IMG/VR virus record: IMGVR_UViG_3300036398_005784
Location: 1-31,130 of that record
DNA length: 31,130 nt
Strand: one strand, 5' to 3'
Source of the DNA: a virus
This document shows positions 1 through 16,354 of the stretch, piece by piece. The position numbers were made by a program, and so were the translations under genes. The notes beneath the pieces were generated by a model that was not told where the DNA came from, did no database searches, and was given only the letters and a program-made list of their open reading frames with translations. Every line of letters begins with the position of its first letter. Within the stretch, counting starts at the first letter, position 1.

Positions 1-657
1 TTAGAGTATTTTATCAATTATTCCATAATCTAATGCTTCTTGACTTGACATCCAATTATCTCTGTCTGCATCTTTCTTAATTTTATCCATATCTTGACCT
101 GTATGCTTTGAAATCACGCTATACAATGATTCTCTGATTCGTATCATTTCCTTCGTATAGATTTCAATATCAGATGCTTGACCTTGAGTTCCACCCAAAG
201 GTTGATGCATCATTACTCTTGAATGTGGAAGAGCAAATCTTTTACCTTTCGCACCTGCTGTAAGTAAAACTTGACCCATAGATGCAGCCATACCTACACA
301 AATAGTTGATACATCAGGCTTTACATACTGCATTGTATCATAAATTGCCATACCTGCACTAACACTTCCACCAGGTGAATTAATATAAAGATAGATGTCT
401 TTAGTCGGATCTTCTGATTGTAAGAACAATAATTGTGCAATCACAATAGATGAAACATCGTCATCTATACCTGCTCCTAAAAAAATTATTCTCTCTTTTA
501 GTAGTCGGGAAAAGATGTCATAGGATCTTTCACCTCTTGAACTTTGTTCAATTACATAGGGAATTAAGTGGGATTTCATTTTTATATCAAAATGTGGAAA
601 ATCAAAATTACTGTTAATTATATCAAGTATAATTTTTTTGTTCACTAATATCGTCAT
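1..657 (-). CDS. clpP: ATP-dependent Clp protease proteolytic subunit ClpP
   Basis: This is a complete serine peptidase of the ClpP family, the proteolytic barrel that degrades substrates unfolded by ClpX or ClpA. It is 218 aa from the ATG at 657; an upstream in-frame TTG at 675 is less likely. The stop codon is at positions 1-3. Visible motifs, numbered from the ATG, are INSPGGSV, the nucleophile in GMAASMGQ (Ser126), the histidine in MMHQPLGG (His151), and the acidic DADRD segment near 196-200 that holds the catalytic Asp. The core is very close to ordinary bacterial ClpP rather than to the divergent ClpP-like prohead proteases, which suggests recent acquisition from a host. About 40 N-terminal residues before [13 protein letters not shown] are less conserved. 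No ClpX is seen, so a host unfoldase is presumably the partner. The tmRNA gene lies 1.5 kb away on the other strand. Identity is near certain; the role in infection is inferred. Confidence 0.95.
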
Positions 658-1681: not shown

Positions 1682-2116
1682 ATGTTTAAGATTGTTTCTA
1701 TACATTGGGATAATAGAAAAAGAGATTGGTTAGTTACTACCAATAAATGTAAAATTAAATCCGATAAAAAGAACATTTTAGAGATTTCAGTAGATGGTTT
1801 TAGAAAAAATCTATTTATTCATAAAAACATATTTGATTTCTTAACTATTTATTACAAAGCAGAAGAGAATGAAAATAATTATACCAATATAGATTGGGCT
1901 GCTTTATCTTTAGATGAATGTATAATTTTTATAGAGAAGGATTCTGATATTAACAAATGCATATCTTATTTTTATAGAACTCTTGAGAAAATTGAAGAAA
2001 ATGAAGAATTAAAAGGGAATAAACTATATCATTTTTACAATAGAACTCAATTATCTCATGGTTTATTTTATCCATCTTATCCACATAAAGAAAAAAGATT
2101 TGGTAAATTCAGATAA
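1682..2116 (+). CDS. Hypothetical protein, 144 aa
   Basis: This is an unrecognised protein with an alternating hydrophobic and charged N-terminus (MFKIVSIHWDNRKRDWLVTT) that suggests a beta-rich start. An acidic helical middle follows, and the tail is rich in Tyr, His, Phe and Lys. There is no signal peptide and no membrane segment. The gene is divergent from the DUF3293-like gene, and the intergenic stretch holds GATATATTATAG at 1620-1631, a weak relative of the GATATATAG element seen before the structural genes. The tmRNA gene begins 60 bp downstream. Confidence 0.6.
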   Translation: MFKIVSIHWDNRKRDWLVTTNKCKIKSDKKNILEISVDGFRKNLFIHKNIFDFLTIYYKAEENENNYTNIDWAALSLDECIIFIEKDSDINKCISYFYRTLEKIEENEELKGNKLYHFYNRTQLSHGLFYPSYPHKEKRFGKFR

Positions 2117-2175: not shown

Positions 2176-2565
2176 GGGGGTGTCATTGGTTTCGATTGGC
2201 TTTTGACGCATTAAGAAGCAACCCGTGCTGATACTCGGTGGAGCACGATAATACAACTGAGTAAACTATAAGTGGCAATAACAGCACACATATTTTCAAT
2301 CTTTATCCAATGGTTGAAAATACCCAGAATCAATACGCAGTAGCGGCTTGATTCCAAGTGATACAATTTGTGGCTATTCTCATTATATCACTTGTCGCAT
2401 ATAATAGCATATATTGTAAAGGGCTTTCACTTTACAATGAATACTTGAAAGCAAAAGGATTATCGGCTGTCCTTTGCCTAAATAATTCTTATCAATAAAG
2501 GACTATGGTTGTAGTGGTCTGGTAACTTGGAAGTCAAGACGGGGGTTCGATTCCCCCCACCTCCA
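2176..2565 (+). ncRNA. ssrA: tmRNA (transfer-messenger RNA)
   Basis: This is a one-piece tmRNA of about 390 nt that rescues stalled ribosomes and adds a degradation tag. The acceptor stem pairs 2176-2182 (GGGGGUG) with 2558-2564 (CACCUCC) and includes a G3-U70 wobble, the alanyl-tRNA synthetase identity element. The T arm is 2541-2557 with loop TTCGATT. The 5' side has the typical UCAUUGGUUUCGAUUGGC start. A tag frame ending at 2351 reads ENTQNQYAVAA plus stop, probably preceded by V (GTT at 2313). Long pairings follow at 2355-2363/2386-2394, 2413-2421/2430-2438 and 2451-2459/2470-2477, as expected for pseudoknots 2-4. The gene encodes A then CAA, so CCA is not encoded and must be added after transcription. 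The exact resume codon cannot be fixed by eye. Confidence 0.95.
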
Positions 2566-3400: not shown

Positions 3401-4195
3401 ATGAATTTTAAAGAAATGTCATGTTATGAATTATTGGAAGTTTTTTCAGAACTTAGATCACACTCATCTTTTGATAGATTAGCACCTACTTGGACTCCAA
3501 GAGTTCTTAAAATAAAAGAAATATTAGAAGTATTTGAAATACCATATAGAATTAAGCACTATGTAGTTCCTGGTTTTGAAAATAGATATTTCACAAATTT
3601 TTATATTTCTTTCAATCAAGAAAGTGAAGAAGATGGTCTTTTGTTTTTAGCCCATCACGATATAAATAATGAAAGGTCACAAAATGCTCAGGACAATACA
3701 TCTTCAGTATGTCAATTACTCACTATGATGCGTGATTTGAAAGATAAGCAACTCACAAGACCAATTCATTTTGCTATTGTGGATTCGGAAGAACATGTCA
3801 ATTTACATTGTTGCGGTAGTCAGGTTTTATCTGAAGATATACATAATGGTGAATTTGGAAAGTTAGAAGTATGTGTAAATCTTGAACTTACTGGTTTAGG
3901 AAAACATATATGGGTAAGTGCTTTTGAAAAATTTCCTGATGAATGTGCTAATATCATTGAGAAATTAAACGCAAAGAAAGTTACTACACCATACACAGAT
4001 GCTTATGTATTATCTATGCATGGCGTACCTGCTATGTGTATTGGTATCTTGGATGATAAAGATATTGATATAGCAACTAAATCTCTCGGTTATCCTGAAA
4101 TTTGGGCTTTATGTCACAGAATGGAAGATACATACGATAAGATTTCAAAAGAAGATATGTTAGAATTTCAAAATACCCTTATAGGACTTTGTTAA
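3401..4195 (+). CDS. M28-type zinc aminopeptidase-like protein
   Basis: This is a 264-aa protein with the metal-ligand order of peptidase family M28 (aminopeptidases and the related glutaminyl cyclases). It has His85-x-Asp87 in LAHHDI, Asp98 in NAQDN, the acidic pair Glu130-Glu131 in DSEEH, Glu162 in NLELTG, and a late histidine in CHRMEDTYDKIS near 238. All positions expected to bind the two zinc ions are present, so it is probably active. No signal peptide is visible, which points to a cytoplasmic enzyme, unlike many secreted M28 members. Its stop is 1 bp before the RmlB start, so the two are likely co-translated. A peptidase acting on peptides released by ClpP, or on a modified cell-surface peptide, are both possible roles; neither is shown. 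Confidence 0.8.
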   Translation: MNFKEMSCYELLEVFSELRSHSSFDRLAPTWTPRVLKIKEILEVFEIPYRIKHYVVPGFENRYFTNFYISFNQESEEDGLLFLAHHDINNERSQNAQDNTSSVCQLLTMMRDLKDKQLTRPIHFAIVDSEEHVNLHCCGSQVLSEDIHNGEFGKLEVCVNLELTGLGKHIWVSAFEKFPDECANIIEKLNAKKVTTPYTDAYVLSMHGVPAMCIGILDDKDIDIATKSLGYPEIWALCHRMEDTYDKISKEDMLEFQNTLIGLC

Positions 4196-8552: not shown

Positions 8553-11500
8553 ATGGTATATGCGGCAGATAAATATTTAAGAAAATTTTTAGGAATAGCA
8601 AGTGTACGAGATCCCGTTATTGGAGCAGATCCAAATTATGAAGATCCGACATTTCCTATTTTTAGTATTAAATTTGAATTTACATCAAGAGATTCAAAAC
8701 ATCCTGACTATTTACCAAATAGACTTTTAACTAGTGGTCCAGAATCAGCAGTTCAATTTTTATATTCAGTAGGTGAACCAGAACGAGCAAAAATGCTTGA
8801 AAAATTTATTTCTTCCCTACGAAAGATAAGTGAGGAGACTCCTTGGTATTTTCAGTCTGTTACAGGATTAGATAGTTTGTATTCTCAAGGTTATATTAAT
8901 ACTAGAGGTACTCAAACTGGATTATCAGATGCTTCCATAACTATAAGTACTCTTGAAAGTTTAGATTATAGATTACACGCACTAAAAGATTTATATCGTA
9001 AAGCAGCGTATGATAGAAAATATAGAAGATGGATTTTACCTATAAATATGCGTAGATTTAGAATGAGTGTATTTATTGGTGATTATAGGCAAATGGCAAT
9101 TACTGAAGATAATTACTCTATCAATCCAAGACAAGCACTTGATGCTTTAAGAGATATTGATGTTTTTAATGGTAGTAATATTGGTGGCAAATTATTAGGT
9201 AAAATTAATGATGGTGCATTATCTTTTGTAAAAAGATTACAATGGTGGGATAATCATTTTTCTTGTATGCTTTTTGATTGTCAAGATTGTGAATTTGATA
9301 TGTCAGGTTTTGTAACAGATTTAAGTCATAGTAGATTAAATAATGATTTAGATTCTAAATTTACCATAAATATTGGTAGGGTTTTAGAAACTAATACATA
9401 TAGTCTTTTAAAATATGCAATTAGTGATAATTTATTAGAAAATAGATTAAAAGCTGAAAATGAAAATGAAGTAGCTAAACAATCTGAAAATTTAAAAAAT
9501 GTATTCAAACCTATTGTATCAAGTTGGAAAGAATATCAAAATCTTGAAAGAGAAAAGGGCGACAATAAAAGGGTTATTTTAGAAGATAATGGATTTTCTA
9601 ATGCTTTAGGTGCTGGTGTTAGTGAAGCATTAGGTGGAATAGGTGCATTGGGTGGTAGTAATTTAGGAGAACGAGGTGGATTTTTAGGTTCAGTTGGTGA
9701 TTTTTTTGGTGATACCGCATCCGAATTAGCCCAAGAAGCATTAGGTATGGCTACTGAACAGATTGCTTCAAATGTTTATGGTAATGAATTAACACGATCC
9801 GCTGCTGGAGTTGGCTTGGGTATATTAAATGGAGATTTGAATCAAGTTGCTCGAAACTTTTCTAATCCAGCCCTCGCTGGTGCTCTTGGTATTAATGTTG
9901 AGTCATCTGGAAGACCTGTCCAACCTAATTTGAGAGATGGTGTACCATCTAATGTAGATTTAACTGCCCCAAGTGTTCAAAGATCATTAAGTGATGCTCA
10001 AGCTAATTTAGTAGGTGAAGGTGCAGATCCAAGATTTCAATCTATTGGTAGGCCTGGTCAATCTCTTTTCACAAACCCTAATTCAATTGACAGAACATTT
10101 GATCAAAGTAACATTGATTTGACAAGCCCAAGAGTAGAAACCGAAATGCCAATTAATGTTGAATTTACTGAAGTAAGAAAAGAAACAAGACTTAATCCTT
10201 CAAAGGAAAGTTTATCTGGAGCGACTCCTAAAACTACATTAGATGAAAGAAATGCAAATCTTTTAGGTGCTGGAAAGAAAACAGATTTAACTCCAAGCAA
10301 TGCAGATTTGACAGGGGCGCAACCACTTAAAGACCTTGTTCCAAGCAATGCAGACTTGACAGGGGCACAGCCACTTAAAGACCTTGTTCCAAGCAATGCT
10401 GATTTGAATGGTGCTGAACCACTTAAAGATTTAGTCCCAAGCAATGCAGATTTAACAGGAGCACAGCCACTCAAAGACCTTGTTCCAAGCAATGCTGATT
10501 TGACAGGAGCACAACCACTTAAAGATCTTGTTCCAAGCAATGCTGATCTGAATGGTGCTGAAGCACTTAAAGATCTTGTTCCAAGCAATGCTGATTTGAA
10601 TGGTGCTGAAGCACTTAAAGATTTAGTCCCAAGCAATGCTGACTTGAATGGTGCTGAAGCACTTAAAGACCTTGTTCCAAGCAATGCTGACTTGAATGGT
10701 GCTGAAGCACTTAAAGACCTTGTTCCAAGCAATGCAGACTTGACAGGAGCACAACCGATTAGGGACTTGACACCTAATAGTGCAGATTTGACAGGAGCAC
10801 TGCCACTTAAAGATCTTGTTCCAAGCAATGCTGATTTGAATGGTGCTGAAGCACTTAAAGACCTTGTTCCAAGCAATGCAGACTTGACAGGAGCACAACC
10901 GATTAGGGACTTAACACCTAATAGTGCAGACTTGACAGGAGCACAACCGATTAGGGACTTAACACCTAATAGTGCAGACTTGACAGGAGCACAACCAATT
11001 AGGGACTTAACACCTAATAGTGCAGACTTGACAGGGGCACAACCGATTAGGGACTTAACACCTAATAGTGCAGACTTGACAGGGGCACAACCGATTAGGG
11101 ACTTGACATCTAATAGTGCAGACTTGAATGGTGCTGAACCGCTCAAAGATTTAGTTACAAACAATGCAGACTTGACAGGAGCACAACCGATTAGGGACTT
11201 AACACCTAACAGTGCAGACTTGACAGGAGCACAACCAATTAGGGACTTAACACCTAACAGTGCAGACTTGACAGGAGCACAACCAATTAGGGACTTGACA
11301 TCTAATAGTGCAGACTTGACAGGGGCACAGCCAATTAGGGACTTGACATCAAAAGATATTGATTTCAATGAAATAAATGTAACAAGAAACTTAAATGATA
11401 CTCAAATTTCCCTTTCTGAACCAAATGTAGTTAGAGATTTCAATACAACTAATTTAGATTTAAATCAACCAAATGCTAAAAATTCTTTTGATTCTTCAAA

Positions 11501-12191
11501 TGTTAATTTGATTGGAAGTGAACCATCTAATACATTTTCATCTGAAAATATAAATTTCAATGAAGGTTCTAAAGTAATGACGATGGATAAATCAATAGAA
11601 CTTAACGGAAGCACTCCACTAAAACAAAGTTCAGAGAGCAATGTTAATTTGATTGGCTACTCACCAGTTCAGAAAACAAGTTTAGGTTCAGAAAATTTGA
11701 CAGGAATTAAGCCTATAACAGAAATGCCTAATAAAAATGTCGGTGGTATGATTTCTGATGGAATAACTAATGTAAAATTAGGTACGGAAAATTTAGTAGG
11801 TCAAAGTCCTGTGACTAATTTTAACGAACTTAATATGAAATTAGAGGGTCAAATAAGAAAACCTGAAACGATTGAAAATGTAGAACTAGAAGGGAATACA
11901 AAAGATATATCTATTCCAAAAAATATAGATTTACAAGGTAGAAATCCTCAAATAACTATGGAAAAGAATATTCAGTTTAGAGATGATTCTTCTCCTCAAA
12001 ATCAATTAGGAAAACTTGATTTTTCTGAAATCCCAGTTGATAAGACATTCAGTAAAACAAATGTTGAATTAGAATCTAGAACTCCAACTTCTACAACTTT
12101 AAGTAATATAGGTTTAACTGATAATACACCACCAGGTGTGATAAGAAGCATAGACGGAACGATTAATTTTAATAATGATAATTCAGAGTAA
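8553..12191 (+). CDS. Baseplate/tail-tube-type virion protein with 16-residue repeat array
   Basis: This is a 1212-aa protein in three parts. Residues 1-330 form a globular domain with RRFRMSVFIGDYRQ, FDCQDCEFDMSG and SRLNNDLDSKFTINIG. Its order (dimension-setting strand, CEFDMSG, then an E-strand) resembles tube-fold baseplate proteins such as gp48/gp54 of T4. Residues about 345-465 are rich in Gly, Ala and Leu. Residues about 470-1200 are built from a repeat of about 16 residues whose core motif is ADL[T/N]GA. Twenty-two near-identical copies occupy residues 584-935, with decayed copies on both sides. The next gene encodes the OB-fold spike, which supports a central baseplate role. The array could be an extended solenoid or a disordered ruler-like tether. 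The gp48/54 comparison is tentative. Confidence 0.6.
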   Translation: MVYAADKYLRKFLGIASVRDPVIGADPNYEDPTFPIFSIKFEFTSRDSKHPDYLPNRLLTSGPESAVQFLYSVGEPERAKMLEKFISSLRKISEETPWYFQSVTGLDSLYSQGYINTRGTQTGLSDASITISTLESLDYRLHALKDLYRKAAYDRKYRRWILPINMRRFRMSVFIGDYRQMAITEDNYSINPRQALDALRDIDVFNGSNIGGKLLGKINDGALSFVKRLQWWDNHFSCMLFDCQDCEFDMSGFVTDLSHSRLNNDLDSKFTINIGRVLETNTYSLLKYAISDNLLENRLKAENENEVAKQSENLKNVFKPIVSSWKEYQNLEREKGDNKRVILEDNGFSNALGAGVSEALGGIGALGGSNLGERGGFLGSVGDFFGDTASELAQEALGMATEQIASNVYGNELTRSAAGVGLGILNGDLNQVARNFSNPALAGALGINVESSGRPVQPNLRDGVPSNVDLTAPSVQRSLSDAQANLVGEGADPRFQSIGRPGQSLFTNPNSIDRTFDQSNIDLTSPRVETEMPINVEFTEVRKETRLNPSKESLSGATPKTTLDERNANLLGAGKKTDLTPSNADLTGAQPLKDLVPSNADLTGAQPLKDLVPSNADLNGAEPLKDLVPSNADLTGAQPLKDLVPSNADLTGAQPLKDLVPSNADLNGAEALKDLVPSNADLNGAEALKDLVPSNADLNGAEALKDLVPSNADLNGAEALKDLVPSNADLTGAQPIRDLTPNSADLTGALPLKDLVPSNADLNGAEALKDLVPSNADLTGAQPIRDLTPNSADLTGAQPIRDLTPNSADLTGAQPIRDLTPNSADLTGAQPIRDLTPNSADLTGAQPIRDLTSNSADLNGAEPLKDLVTNNADLTGAQPIRDLTPNSADLTGAQPIRDLTPNSADLTGAQPIRDLTSNSADLTGAQPIRDLTSKDIDFNEINVTRNLNDTQISLSEPNVVRDFNTTNLDLNQPNAKNSFDSSNVNLIGSEPSNTFSSENINFNEGSKVMTMDKSIELNGSTPLKQSSESNVNLIGYSPVQKTSLGSENLTGIKPITEMPNKNVGGMISDGITNVKLGTENLVGQSPVTNFNELNMKLEGQIRKPETIENVELEGNTKDISIPKNIDLQGRNPQITMEKNIQFRDDSSPQNQLGKLDFSEIPVDKTFSKTNVELESRTPTSTTLSNIGLTDNTPPGVIRSIDGTINFNNDNSE
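10302..11357 (+). repeat. 22-copy 48-bp in-frame tandem repeat
   Basis: Twenty-two tandem units of exactly 48 bp (16 codons) lie within the 1212-aa gene. Three sequence subtypes are visible: ADLTGAQPLKDLVPSN, ADLNGAEALKDLVPSN and ADLTGAQPIRDLTPNS. They occur in blocks, including a run of four NGAEA units and a run of five PIRD units. Phase is never broken. Neighbouring units differ by few bases, which indicates recent unequal recombination or slippage. Because 48 is a multiple of 3, an antisense frame also stays open here. Confidence 0.95.
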
Positions 12192-13009: not shown

Positions 13010-16000
13010 ATGGCAAAATCTTTATTACAAATATCAAATTATGCATTAGTAGAATTAGATTACGAAACTACACTCATTTCTACTAGTTCTCAATCATTCT
13101 TATTAATAGATTCTTCTTATACGAATGAAAGACAAATCTTAAATGTTACAAAAGGAAATAATCCAACATCAAACATTTTAGATAGGTCTGCTGTTCGTTT
13201 AACAGATACGAGAACATGGGCACATTTAGACCAAGATAGAGCTATTCCATATAATGTTTTAGATACAAATAATCTCAATCAACAAGTATTAAGTGACCTT
13301 ACATCAACTCAATGGCCAGTTGAATATGAAACTTTAAAATTACATCTTCTTTCAGGATATAATTTAGAAGATTTAGATGGTCTTTTGTTAAGTGTTGAAT
13401 ATCCAGAAGTTTCGGGGAAAAACTCTACTATTGCTCAAGTAGCATATTTAAGGGGTGATGAATATATTAAATTCAATCCAAGACCTATTGTTATTGCTGG
13501 AAGAAGTTATGATAGATATATTGAGGTTCTTATACCATCACTATTTTATCTAAATACAGAGTATTACGCTAATCCTACAAGCGGTGCATTAGCATATTGG
13601 CTAACATCTGATAATAAAGGATATCAGAAAAATGGTCTCATTTCTATCTCTTTAAGAGAAATTACAACAAGTAATGATAATGGTGTTACGCTTACTTTAA
13701 CTACTGGAAATGTTAGTAATGTAACATATAAACAGCAAGACGCTTTTAATCTTCTAAATGCTGTAATTGTAGAAAATGAGGAAGAAGATTGTTTTGAATA
13801 CTATCCATCATGGCAAGGAGGATTTGTAGAGGATTTAATAACAGATTTGAATGGTGTGGGTGGTGATTATTATGTATTCCATGAATTATACATATATGAA
13901 CAGGTTGGATTTAGTCAAGTTCAAACAGATTATTTTGTATCTATTCAAGAAGGAGATTTTAATGCTCCAAAAAGATTTAGACCTATTCTAAAAAATGCGG
14001 ATTCTGCATATTCGTTTAGTATAGATTATGTAATGAGACTTACTGATAAAGATACAGGTTCTCAAATTGTCAGAACTGCATCTGTTACCTCATTTGAACC
14101 AAAAAGTTATGGTAGAAAAGTTCAAAAAGTCAATTTAGAAAGTGATGTCAGATCCTTTAAGATTTACAATAAAATAATTGAAGAAACAAAACTTCAAATC
14201 AATAAAAGCACAGTAGAAAAAAAGATTGAAAAACTTTATACGCCTACATTTTTTGATTTCAACGAAATTGCCGTTAATACCTCAAATGTCATATTAAAAA
14301 CTGATGGAACTTTCACTACCGAATCCGTATGGAATTGGGATGTGATTTTTGGACAAGGTGAAGCGATACTACTTTTGCATCCTTATGAGAATTATGTAAA
14401 ATTCAAAATGCATCGTTATTTGGAAGGAAATCAAACTACAAGTCTTGATTTAAGATTTGATGTAGATTTATTTTTAGTTATTGAATATGATAGCAAAAGA
14501 GTAAAGTTTTCTAAAATAGATGGATTTTATTCTACTAACCTCGCTGAAGGAGAAGTAATATTTAAAATACCATCAAAAGAAGCGTCTAATATCTATGCTA
14601 CAGAAAGTGGTATTTTTTATATCACTTCAAAAGTGCCATCCTTTATTAAAGTTAAAGTTAAAGATAATTTTGTTGGTGGAATAGCCAATAGAGAAATTAA
14701 TATAATTTCAAAAGAGTATTATTCAAAAGGTGATACTGATAATTTTGAATTAGTTTTTGATGGTGTAACTTATTTCGTACCGAAAAATATGTTACAAGTA
14801 ATACAAGTTATACCAACAGGTTCTGGCGTTAGCGAAACCACTCTTTATACAGGTAAATGGCGTAGAATGGAAGACGCTGATAAAGTAAAAGATGATATTG
14901 AAAATATAAGAAAAGCTGAACTAGAAAGGGTATTAAACAAGATTAGAACTGGTCAACAATCTTTATCTACAAGACAATCAGAGTTAGAACAAAGAGCTAC
15001 CGAATTAGCGGCTCTTGAAGCAAGATTGAATGCTCAAAAATTATCTCAATCAAATCAATCTGACTTATTAAGGTCTTTACAAAATGATGTAAATAGTCGT
15101 GAAAAACTACTTAATCAAAGAGAACGAGATTTAAGAGAACAATCAAAAAGAGCAGCAGAAGCTGAAAATGCAAATATTTCTGCATTTCAAGACCAACTGA
15201 ACAAAATATTAAAATCAATAGAAGATTTAGAAAACGCAACACCATCAAATCCTGTTGTTGATAATCAAGGTTCTGGTAATCAAGGTTCTGGTAATCAAGG
15301 TTCAGGAAATCAAGGTTCTGGTAATCAAGGTTCTGGTAATCAAGGTTCAGGAAATCAAGGTTCTGGTAATCAAGGTTCGGGTAATCAAGGTTCGGGTAAT
15401 CAAGGTTCGGGAAATCAAGGAACTGGTACACAAGGGACAAGAGTAACAGCATCTGATATTTTAAATAGAAATGCAGGTATAAGTGTTAATAACAATGTCA
15501 ACATTACAAATGTAGCAAGTAGAATCAATTATGTAGATTTTGCAGGTAGGTCTGGAAATGATTTAGGCGTATTGCCATCAACTGGCTTTAACCCAATAAC
15601 TATTGATGCTGGACTAGATACTTCAAAGAAAGGTTTCCAACTTGCTGGATCGGGTTCTTCAGTTGGTACTAATGCTAATTCAAATGTTAATGCAACAGTG
15701 AATAGACTGATAGGTGGTACAACAAATACAGCAAGTGGAAATAATAATTTTTCAGACCCACAATATAATCTTACTCCTATTGCAAGAGAAAGAAATAGAA
15801 TTGTAAGGAATAATACAGAATCTAATTCAGGAACGAATACTAATCCCCCTTCTGAAAATACGGACAAAATTGTATACGGTAAAGTTATTGATTGGGATAG
15901 TCAAGTAAGAAATGAATTAACTTTTAAGAATTTATCAAACGGAACAACTGAATCGTTCTATAAATTTACACCATTCACATACGATGGTTTTAAGACAAAT

Positions 16001-16354
16001 AATAGAAGAATTGAAATTCAGGTAGATACTGTTAATTATTTAAAAGTTGGTGATATTATTATTTCACAATTAACCGAAAAAATGGAATATTTATCCATTA
16101 ATCAACCAGTAAATTTAGATATTAAATATATCAAAATAGAAATTAAGAATATAATATCACCAAATATAGTGCAAGGTGTATATTTGAGACCTGAATACGA
16201 TGGTCTCCCCCTTAATCAGTATTTGAATGTAAAAACTAATCCTTATGAACAAAGACATAAATGGGATATAATAAAGAAAGCTAATTCAGGTAGTGGAGGA
16301 TCGCAAGGTGATGGTGGTGGCGGTGGAGACACTGGTGCAAAAGTACCATTATAA
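13010..16354 (+). CDS. Large virion structural protein with coiled coil and (NQGSG)n linker
   Basis: This is a 1114-aa protein. Residues 1-610 are beta-rich with no family I recognise. Residues about 617-742 form a long heptad-rich coiled coil (for example QSELEQRATELAALEARLNA). Residues 752-806 are an exact pentapeptide linker, NQGSG, repeated ten times plus a variant. Residues 807 onward contain a Gly/Asn/Ser-rich segment and a final beta domain (KIVYGKVIDWDSQVRNELTFK) before a GGSGG-rich end. The order (rod, flexible linker, terminal domain) suits a fibrous or baseplate-wedge part. It is read with the spike gene (1-bp gap) and followed at 14 bp by a small tube-like gene. The exact T4 counterpart is not identified. 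Confidence 0.65.
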   Translation: MAKSLLQISNYALVELDYETTLISTSSQSFLLIDSSYTNERQILNVTKGNNPTSNILDRSAVRLTDTRTWAHLDQDRAIPYNVLDTNNLNQQVLSDLTSTQWPVEYETLKLHLLSGYNLEDLDGLLLSVEYPEVSGKNSTIAQVAYLRGDEYIKFNPRPIVIAGRSYDRYIEVLIPSLFYLNTEYYANPTSGALAYWLTSDNKGYQKNGLISISLREITTSNDNGVTLTLTTGNVSNVTYKQQDAFNLLNAVIVENEEEDCFEYYPSWQGGFVEDLITDLNGVGGDYYVFHELYIYEQVGFSQVQTDYFVSIQEGDFNAPKRFRPILKNADSAYSFSIDYVMRLTDKDTGSQIVRTASVTSFEPKSYGRKVQKVNLESDVRSFKIYNKIIEETKLQINKSTVEKKIEKLYTPTFFDFNEIAVNTSNVILKTDGTFTTESVWNWDVIFGQGEAILLLHPYENYVKFKMHRYLEGNQTTSLDLRFDVDLFLVIEYDSKRVKFSKIDGFYSTNLAEGEVIFKIPSKEASNIYATESGIFYITSKVPSFIKVKVKDNFVGGIANREINIISKEYYSKGDTDNFELVFDGVTYFVPKNMLQVIQVIPTGSGVSETTLYTGKWRRMEDADKVKDDIENIRKAELERVLNKIRTGQQSLSTRQSELEQRATELAALEARLNAQKLSQSNQSDLLRSLQNDVNSREKLLNQRERDLREQSKRAAEAENANISAFQDQLNKILKSIEDLENATPSNPVVDNQGSGNQGSGNQGSGNQGSGNQGSGNQGSGNQGSGNQGSGNQGSGNQGSGNQGTGTQGTRVTASDILNRNAGISVNNNVNITNVASRINYVDFAGRSGNDLGVLPSTGFNPITIDAGLDTSKKGFQLAGSGSSVGTNANSNVNATVNRLIGGTTNTASGNNNFSDPQYNLTPIARERNRIVRNNTESNSGTNTNPPSENTDKIVYGKVIDWDSQVRNELTFKNLSNGTTESFYKFTPFTYDGFKTNNRRIEIQVDTVNYLKVGDIIISQLTEKMEYLSINQPVNLDIKYIKIEIKNIISPNIVQGVYLRPEYDGLPLNQYLNVKTNPYEQRHKWDIIKKANSGSGGSQGDGGGGGDTGAKVPL
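15263..15427 (+). repeat. 11-copy 15-bp tandem repeat encoding NQGSG
   Basis: Ten units of AATCAAGGTTCNGGN and one variant unit (AATCAAGGAACTGGT) are in frame within the 1114-aa gene. The third-position changes (TCT, TCA, TCG; GGT, GGA) form a higher-order order, with tct-tct-tca blocks first and tcg units last. That shows expansion in more than one step. Confidence 0.95.

Follow-up and report, generated by a model that had tools for sequence, protein, structure and literature searches.

Phages that carry tmRNA genes are already known. One survey counts phage tmRNA in 402 of 18,146 phage genomes (PMC9004378), and two further papers report tmRNA in mycobacteriophages and Bacillus phage G (PMC4131195) and tmRNA together with SmpB in huge phages (PMC7162821). 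Flavobacterial phages with tmRNA have also been described (PMC8776804, PMC11590407, PMC13120357). The reason why phages carry these genes is debated, and ribosome rescue, protein clearance, and host control have all been considered. Among cellular systems, Mycoplasma and Mesoplasma have an unusual extended tag that is matched to a particular protease, Lon (PMC3985003, PMC8138137). What is new in the phage lineage described here is a tag of 24 to 26 residues with an internal hairpin, together with a conserved cluster of ClpC, ClpP, and peptidase genes. Searches of open-license papers turned up no phage tmRNA described as being linked to ClpC and ClpP.

The window, by which we mean the whole stretch of DNA analyzed (31,130 bases), is an uncultured virus record and probably a fragment. 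Its gene content includes T4-like tail genes, a UvsX-like recombinase, a DnaB-like helicase, and a phage DNA polymerase. A protein of 1,212 residues (8553 to 12191) contains about twenty to thirty near-identical LKDLVPSNADLTGAQP-type repeats and has a relative with similar repeats in contig L373, and a baseplate-region protein (13010 to 16354) has a GSGNQ repeat tract near its middle. The DUF3293 gene (1001 to 1597) has a product with a second match, to the S-adenosylmethionine lyase family; SAM lyases of phages are able to block restriction-modification.

The sole RNA family match in the window (Rfam) was to the tmRNA model RF00023, at 2176 to 2568 on the plus strand. This match covered all 374 model positions with a score of 131 bits (E value, 2.7e-51; gathering score, 47 bits), and ARAGORN independently called a tmRNA at 2176 to 2566. 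On these grounds we annotated a one-piece tmRNA gene (ssrA) at 2176 to 2568, with the mature 3' end at about 2566. The first-pass annotation had proposed a complete phage tmRNA with an alanine-type acceptor stem and a T arm, and this is confirmed. Within 2176 to 2565, the acceptor stem reads GGGGGUG/CACCUCC with G3-U70, and the T arm (GACGGGGGUUCGAUUCCCCCC) is intact. The fold of the 391-base tmRNA beat 100 of 100 dinucleotide shuffles (z score, −3.8). The window does not encode the 3' CCA (CTCCACAA), but the relative L064 does. Megablast recovered no close DNA relatives from the phage collection, and nearly all of the distant matches listed by blastn were confined to the 3' T-arm region of tmRNAs from other phages.

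A match to the Bacteroidota-type promoter (TTTG-N20-TAnnTTTG; consensus from PMC2483708) lies at 2099 to 2130 on the plus strand, 45 bases 5' of the tmRNA. The motif has five matches in the window versus 1.8 expected by chance, and a match (TTTG-N19/20-TAnnTTTG) is shared by four of the five distinct relatives, with start positions from −49 to −77 relative to the tmRNA. A search of 12 long-tag records, the majority of them fragments, found no SmpB (PF01668), so the phage tmRNA would need the SmpB of its host. Sequence and structure together support a working tmRNA, from which we infer charging and, with good support, tagging; the gene is genuine and very probably functional.

In E. coli tmRNA, the resume codon was placed by experiment four bases past a conserved A (U-A-GUC/GCA; PMC2481249). 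The phage frame obeys the same rule (U-A-AGU/GGC): UAAGU at 2269 to 2273 agrees with the A86 frame rule, GGC at 2274 serves as the resume codon, and the frame stays open as far as a UGA stop. The tag reading frame (2274 to 2351, plus strand; 25 codons plus UGA) thus encodes GNNSTHIFNLYPMVENTQNQYAVAA, a tag of 25 residues that is approximately 2.5 times the length of a bacterial tag. The earlier reading of the tag as (V)ENTQNQYAVAA had begun too late, at an internal Val/Glu.

The tag region forms two hairpins. One (2291 to 2322, plus strand), supported by the fold and by comparison of relatives, is an extra hairpin that lies wholly within the tag frame; in five distinct relatives, 88.6% of its cells were paired, and of the consistent pair changes, one was double-sided and four were one-sided. 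The other (2327 to 2354, plus strand) encloses the final codons of the tag together with its stop and resembles the helix at the tag end of short-tag tmRNAs; 96% of its cells were paired, and one compensatory change, from A-U to C-G, occurred in L067. The Rfam layout has room for just one of the two hairpins, so the second is displayed as an insertion. Because the tag end of a short-tag viral tmRNA (L311) is likewise enclosed by a hairpin, it is the hairpin at 2291 to 2322 that looks like the insertion. The best explanation of the tag is an ordinary Bacteroidota-type sequence (GNN...NQYAVAA) into which a hairpin-forming insert of ∼15 residues (S-THIFNLYPMV-ENT) has been placed. For all drawn helices over five distinct sequences, 93% of cells were paired versus 28 to 42% when the helices were slid, and there were four both-sided pair changes, of which the inserted hairpin and the stop-codon hairpin had one each.

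We then compared the length of this tag with those of cellular and viral tmRNAs. A tmRNA match was found in 294 of 296 genomes from the phylum of a Sphingobacteriales genome, and in 90 of those genomes ARAGORN gave host tags of 8 to 14 residues, nearly all of them 9 or 10. Longer host tags would have shown up, since ARAGORN reports tags of 24 to 26 residues in phages. The phage tag therefore falls outside the short Bacteroidota-type class (∼9 to 10 residues), in agreement with the first-pass annotation, which had called it longer than Bacteroidota tags. That annotation had also described the host tags as short and ending in ALAA; they are short, and this ending is common, but AMAA and RLAA are common too. 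The third-last residue is L or M in nearly all hosts and V or I in the phage.

The pattern ATAAGTGG-N36-66-TAYGCNNTNGCNGCNTRA matched 11 stretches in viral contigs, all 11 of which were tmRNAs with tags of 24 to 26 residues. Long-tag viral tmRNAs fall into three sequence families, namely, A (the window phage), B (tag GNTSIWDVINGFVGAPATEVEYA[VI]AA; 8 contigs), and C (tag GEEKSSFTFEDALAFVGADYAVAA). A short-gap version with the same flanks matched three stretches, of which two were tmRNAs carrying tags of 10 residues. In 84,980 species genomes of bacteria and archaea, 12 stretches fitted the long-gap pattern, and no long-tag tmRNA was among them; because the pattern is bound to these flanks, the coverage of hosts with different flanks comes from the 90-genome sample alone. 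The pattern GGTTTCGA...ATAAGTGG alone gave 119 matches, none of the loci examined was a tmRNA by ARAGORN, and we set these matches aside as chance. In the family B contig L324, the long-tag tmRNA (2444 to 2810) sits amid baseplate genes, a location different from that in the window, and clp genes are not nearby; the phage tail tube protein and one baseplate protein of this contig are distant relatives of those in the window (28 to 33% identity).

Five further contigs with family A tmRNAs were recovered by a ClpP scan, an M28 alignment scan, and a ClpC alignment scan. Single-protein scans with X2609 and with the M28 protein returned no tmRNA relatives, although the M28 alignment did. The relatives carry the tags GNNSTHIFNLYPMVESTQNQYAVAA (G001), GNNSTHIFNQYPLVGNTQTQYAVAA (G002), GTNTHIFNHYPMVEVSSNQYAIAA (L368), and GKNTHIFNHYPMVEVSQNQYAIAA (L373 and L375). 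Across the family A tags, THIFNxYP[ML]V and QYA[VI]AA are conserved and the linker is variable. L368, L373, and L375 have one codon fewer (24 instead of 25) with the frame unbroken, while the two alternative frames run into stops before the end of the region. Since pairing was kept, and the frame was kept through the loss of a whole codon, both the RNA structure and the open frame are maintained. Amino acid changes outnumber silent changes in the family A tag, which suggests that much of the tag peptide is not strictly held; the family B tag codons show four silent changes versus one replacement. THIFN is encoded by an arm of the hairpin, so an RNA constraint could explain its conservation, and selection on the peptide and selection on the encoding arm cannot be separated here.

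In all six related contigs, the tmRNA lies between an orphan gene and clpP on one side and a gene for an M28-type peptidase on the other. In every contig that extends past clpP, a complete clpC (827 to 845 amino acids [aa]) comes next, as in G001, G002, L373, and L375. The surrounding genes (o759, which has 82 residues; the DUF3293 gene; X2609; and a sugar epimerase gene) vary in presence among the six contigs. That clpC, clpP, the orphan gene, the tmRNA, and the M28 gene were kept together amid changing neighbors is the main argument, from gene order, for a functional link. A general association between phage ClpP and tmRNA was unsupported: most viral ClpP contigs have no tmRNA, and among the 35 records underlying the scans with ClpP and X2609, the only 2 with a tmRNA over the cutoff both belonged to family A. 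No ClpP or ClpC was found on the contigs of families B and C, which span 5 to 26 kb.

The clpP gene of the window (1 to 579, minus strand; 192 aa from the ATG) matches PF00574 and is of the cytosolic type with a Ser-His-Asp triad, which is present in every sequence of our ClpP alignment. Its longer form (open reading frame 1 to 675) scored 322.6 bits against TIGR00493, versus a clpP equivalog cutoff of 308.6, while the head maturation protease model scored 93, below its cutoff of 120. The best solved relatives are ClpP structures. Together, these matches indicate that the predicted product is a true cytosolic ClpP and not a head protease. The window and the L368 record (1 to 3) both stop exactly at the clpP stop codon, the point beyond which relatives carry clpC. 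An assembly break seems a less likely cause than the trimming of a host-like gene, clpC, at a predicted boundary.

The phage clpC gene lies off the edge of the window and was seen in relatives only. The ClpC of L318 has a Clp_N domain, two AAA domains, and a UVR motif (a match just above the cutoff). The Walker motifs are intact, and both aligned sequences have an LGF loop of the ClpP-docking type. Identity of the phage ClpC to Bacteroidota ClpC is 55 to 62%, versus 46 to 49% in other genomes with a comparable match. Combined with the promoter match in four of the five relatives, this identity supports a Bacteroidota host.

The orphan gene (1682 to 2116, plus strand; 144 aa) is found beside the tmRNA in all relatives, upstream of it, with products of 131 to 144 residues in the six contigs and 39 to 73% identity. 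The protein had no match in Pfam, PHROGs, or PADLOC, its weak structural model (mean pLDDT, 65) matched no known fold, and neither the family nor the fold searches related it to SmpB or to a Clp adaptor. We regard it as a candidate adaptor or RNA partner. The M28-family metallopeptidase gene (3401 to 4195, plus strand; PF04389), downstream of the tmRNA in all relatives, encodes a probable aminopeptidase in which metal-ligand-like H, D, E, and H positions are invariant.

These observations suggest a pathway in which the tmRNA would be charged with alanine, be bound by host SmpB, and enter ribosomes stalled on broken mRNA, where it would add the 25-residue tag. The terminal A-V/I-A-A would then route tagged proteins to Clp proteolysis. 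Judging by the conserved gene order, the linked phage ClpC and ClpP would be the most likely dedicated destroyer, the extra tag segment may serve recognition by this pair, and the M28 peptidase could finish the peptides to amino acids. We give about an even chance to this reading as a whole, that is, a working tmRNA with a lineage-specific extended tag whose products go to Clp proteolysis, most likely by the phage ClpCP. The link from tagged products to the phage ClpCP is plausible from gene order, and dedicated proteolysis is the best-supported, if unproven, account of the ClpC-ClpP-peptidase cluster. The terminal AVAA can probably be read by host ClpXP as well. A stricter version is possible but doubtful, in which the kit is orthogonal to the host: the phage ClpC-ClpP would read the extended degron in preference to host proteases, with the orphan protein perhaps as an adaptor and the M28 peptidase recycling amino acids. 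The earlier suggestion that phage-tagged proteins may be handled differently is made stronger by the 25-residue tag and by the adjoining clpP, with clpC in relatives.

The strongest competing explanation is that the tmRNA is an ordinary one. Host ClpXP would read the last residues, the insert would be an RNA element acting in folding, stability, or pacing, the peptide that it encodes would be irrelevant, and clpC, clpP, and the peptidase would have separate jobs. The conserved YA[VI]AA end, the compensatory changes that conserve the insert hairpin, the frequent amino acid changes in the tag, and the lack of nearby clp genes on the (short) contigs of families B and C are all consistent with this explanation. 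However, the core block was kept through gain and loss of the genes around it, hosts in the phylum manage without the insert, long tags occur in three sequence families, and the codon changes of family B run 4 silent to 1 replacement. We consider the ordinary tmRNA a tentative second choice. It is also conceivable, though improbable, that ribosome rescue alone matters and that it makes no difference to the phage whether the tagged protein is degraded. Ribosomes would stall during infection as a result of late translation and mRNA decay, and tag function was not critical for plaque formation by the hybrid phage lambda-immP22 (PMC2481249), yet rescue alone leaves the extended tag and the clp and peptidase neighbors unexplained. 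Less credible still is a decoy that binds SmpB and blocks host trans-translation: there is a precedent for SmpB titration in the tmRNA of phage DS6A, which consists of the tRNA-like domain only (PMC4131195), whereas the messenger part, frame, and stop of the phage tmRNA are intact and conserved in five distinct sequences. Finally, although host tmRNA genes are common integration sites, as argued for phages in PMC9004378 and PMC11590407, we rejected a remnant of such a site or of imprecise excision as the least probable origin, since no part of the gene is missing, a promoter match of its own precedes it, it shows compensatory changes, its tag is unlike those of hosts, and it belongs to a block conserved among tailed phages that have T4-like tail genes.

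Dedicated proteolysis by the linked ClpC and ClpP remains our preferred reading. The locus was also compared with the closest known systems. The ssrA genes of Bacteroidota hosts (with tags such as GENNYALAA and DNNYSYRLAA) are one-piece like that of the phage and share with it the G-x-N tag start (in many), the U-A-N-N-N/GGN resume context, and the Y-A-x-A-A end, but their tags have 8 to 14 residues without the extra hairpin. Among phages of this phylum, Chryseobacterium phage MA9V-3 (PV245944) has a 17-residue tag and a gene annotated as clpX, of the AAA+ kind, ∼4 kb away; unlike in the window, its tmRNA is of the permuted two-piece type (RF04321), and the record has no ClpP. The name ClpX is doubtful for this annotated protein (L312, 8939 to 9778; 279 aa), whose only Pfam matches are to general AAA domains. 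The Cellulophaga phages phi38:1 and Calle_2 (Callevirus) have a one-piece tmRNA, as the window does, with a tag of 30 residues by frame reading (GNNTNAVNAQIEANMEAVNAILNLEVAVGV) that ends in VGV and is unrelated in sequence; on frame grounds we infer this tag in place of the 22-residue one given by ARAGORN. The phi38:1 record, unlike the window, has no ClpP. Its tmRNA (L217, 2170 to 2529) is unannotated, with a coding sequence annotated on the opposite strand and a repeated AVNA motif in the tag, which contains no K or R; proteomes of Cellulophaga baltica cells infected with phi38:1 exist (PXD066074, PMC13288928). In Maribacter phage Panino (L316, 27557 to 27889), a permuted tmRNA overlaps tRNA-Asp and tRNA-Thr calls, and its predicted 16-residue tag (GKVMNVSFAPTVRQFA) is unlike the tags that end in A-A.

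Farther afield, the mycobacteriophage Bxz1 group, Streptomyces phages, methylophage Melnitz, and huge phages resemble the window in having a tmRNA in the genome, but the available portions of their descriptions include no linked ClpC and ClpP, and the annotated tags of other phages among the matches listed have 11 to 13 residues versus 25 here. ClpP genes occur in many other phage records. Two 640-kb uncultured phages (LR756502.1 and LR745206.1) encode a ClpC with 58 to 60% identity across the AAA part, along with two or three members of the ClpP family and a remote relative of the M28 peptidase (31% identity); in contrast to the window lineage, they have no one-piece tmRNA above the cutoff, and clpC is far from clpP. 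A precedent for an unusual tag matched to a protease comes from Mycoplasma and Mesoplasma, hosts without ClpXP in which tags are read by Lon and the Mycoplasma tag ends in AFA. A Lon-read tag of this type was rejected for the phage, whose tags keep the A-V/I-A-A end (AVAA or AIAA) and adjoin ClpC and ClpP encoded by the lineage itself. An extended-tag tmRNA locked to ClpC-ClpP and a peptidase offers a concrete, testable answer, dedicated proteolysis, to the question of why phages carry tmRNA, and possibly a new tag-protease pair. If this is correct, the phage tag would be the second natural tmRNA tag enlarged to suit a particular protease, after that of Mycoplasma, and, so far as the open-license literature shows, the first in a virus.
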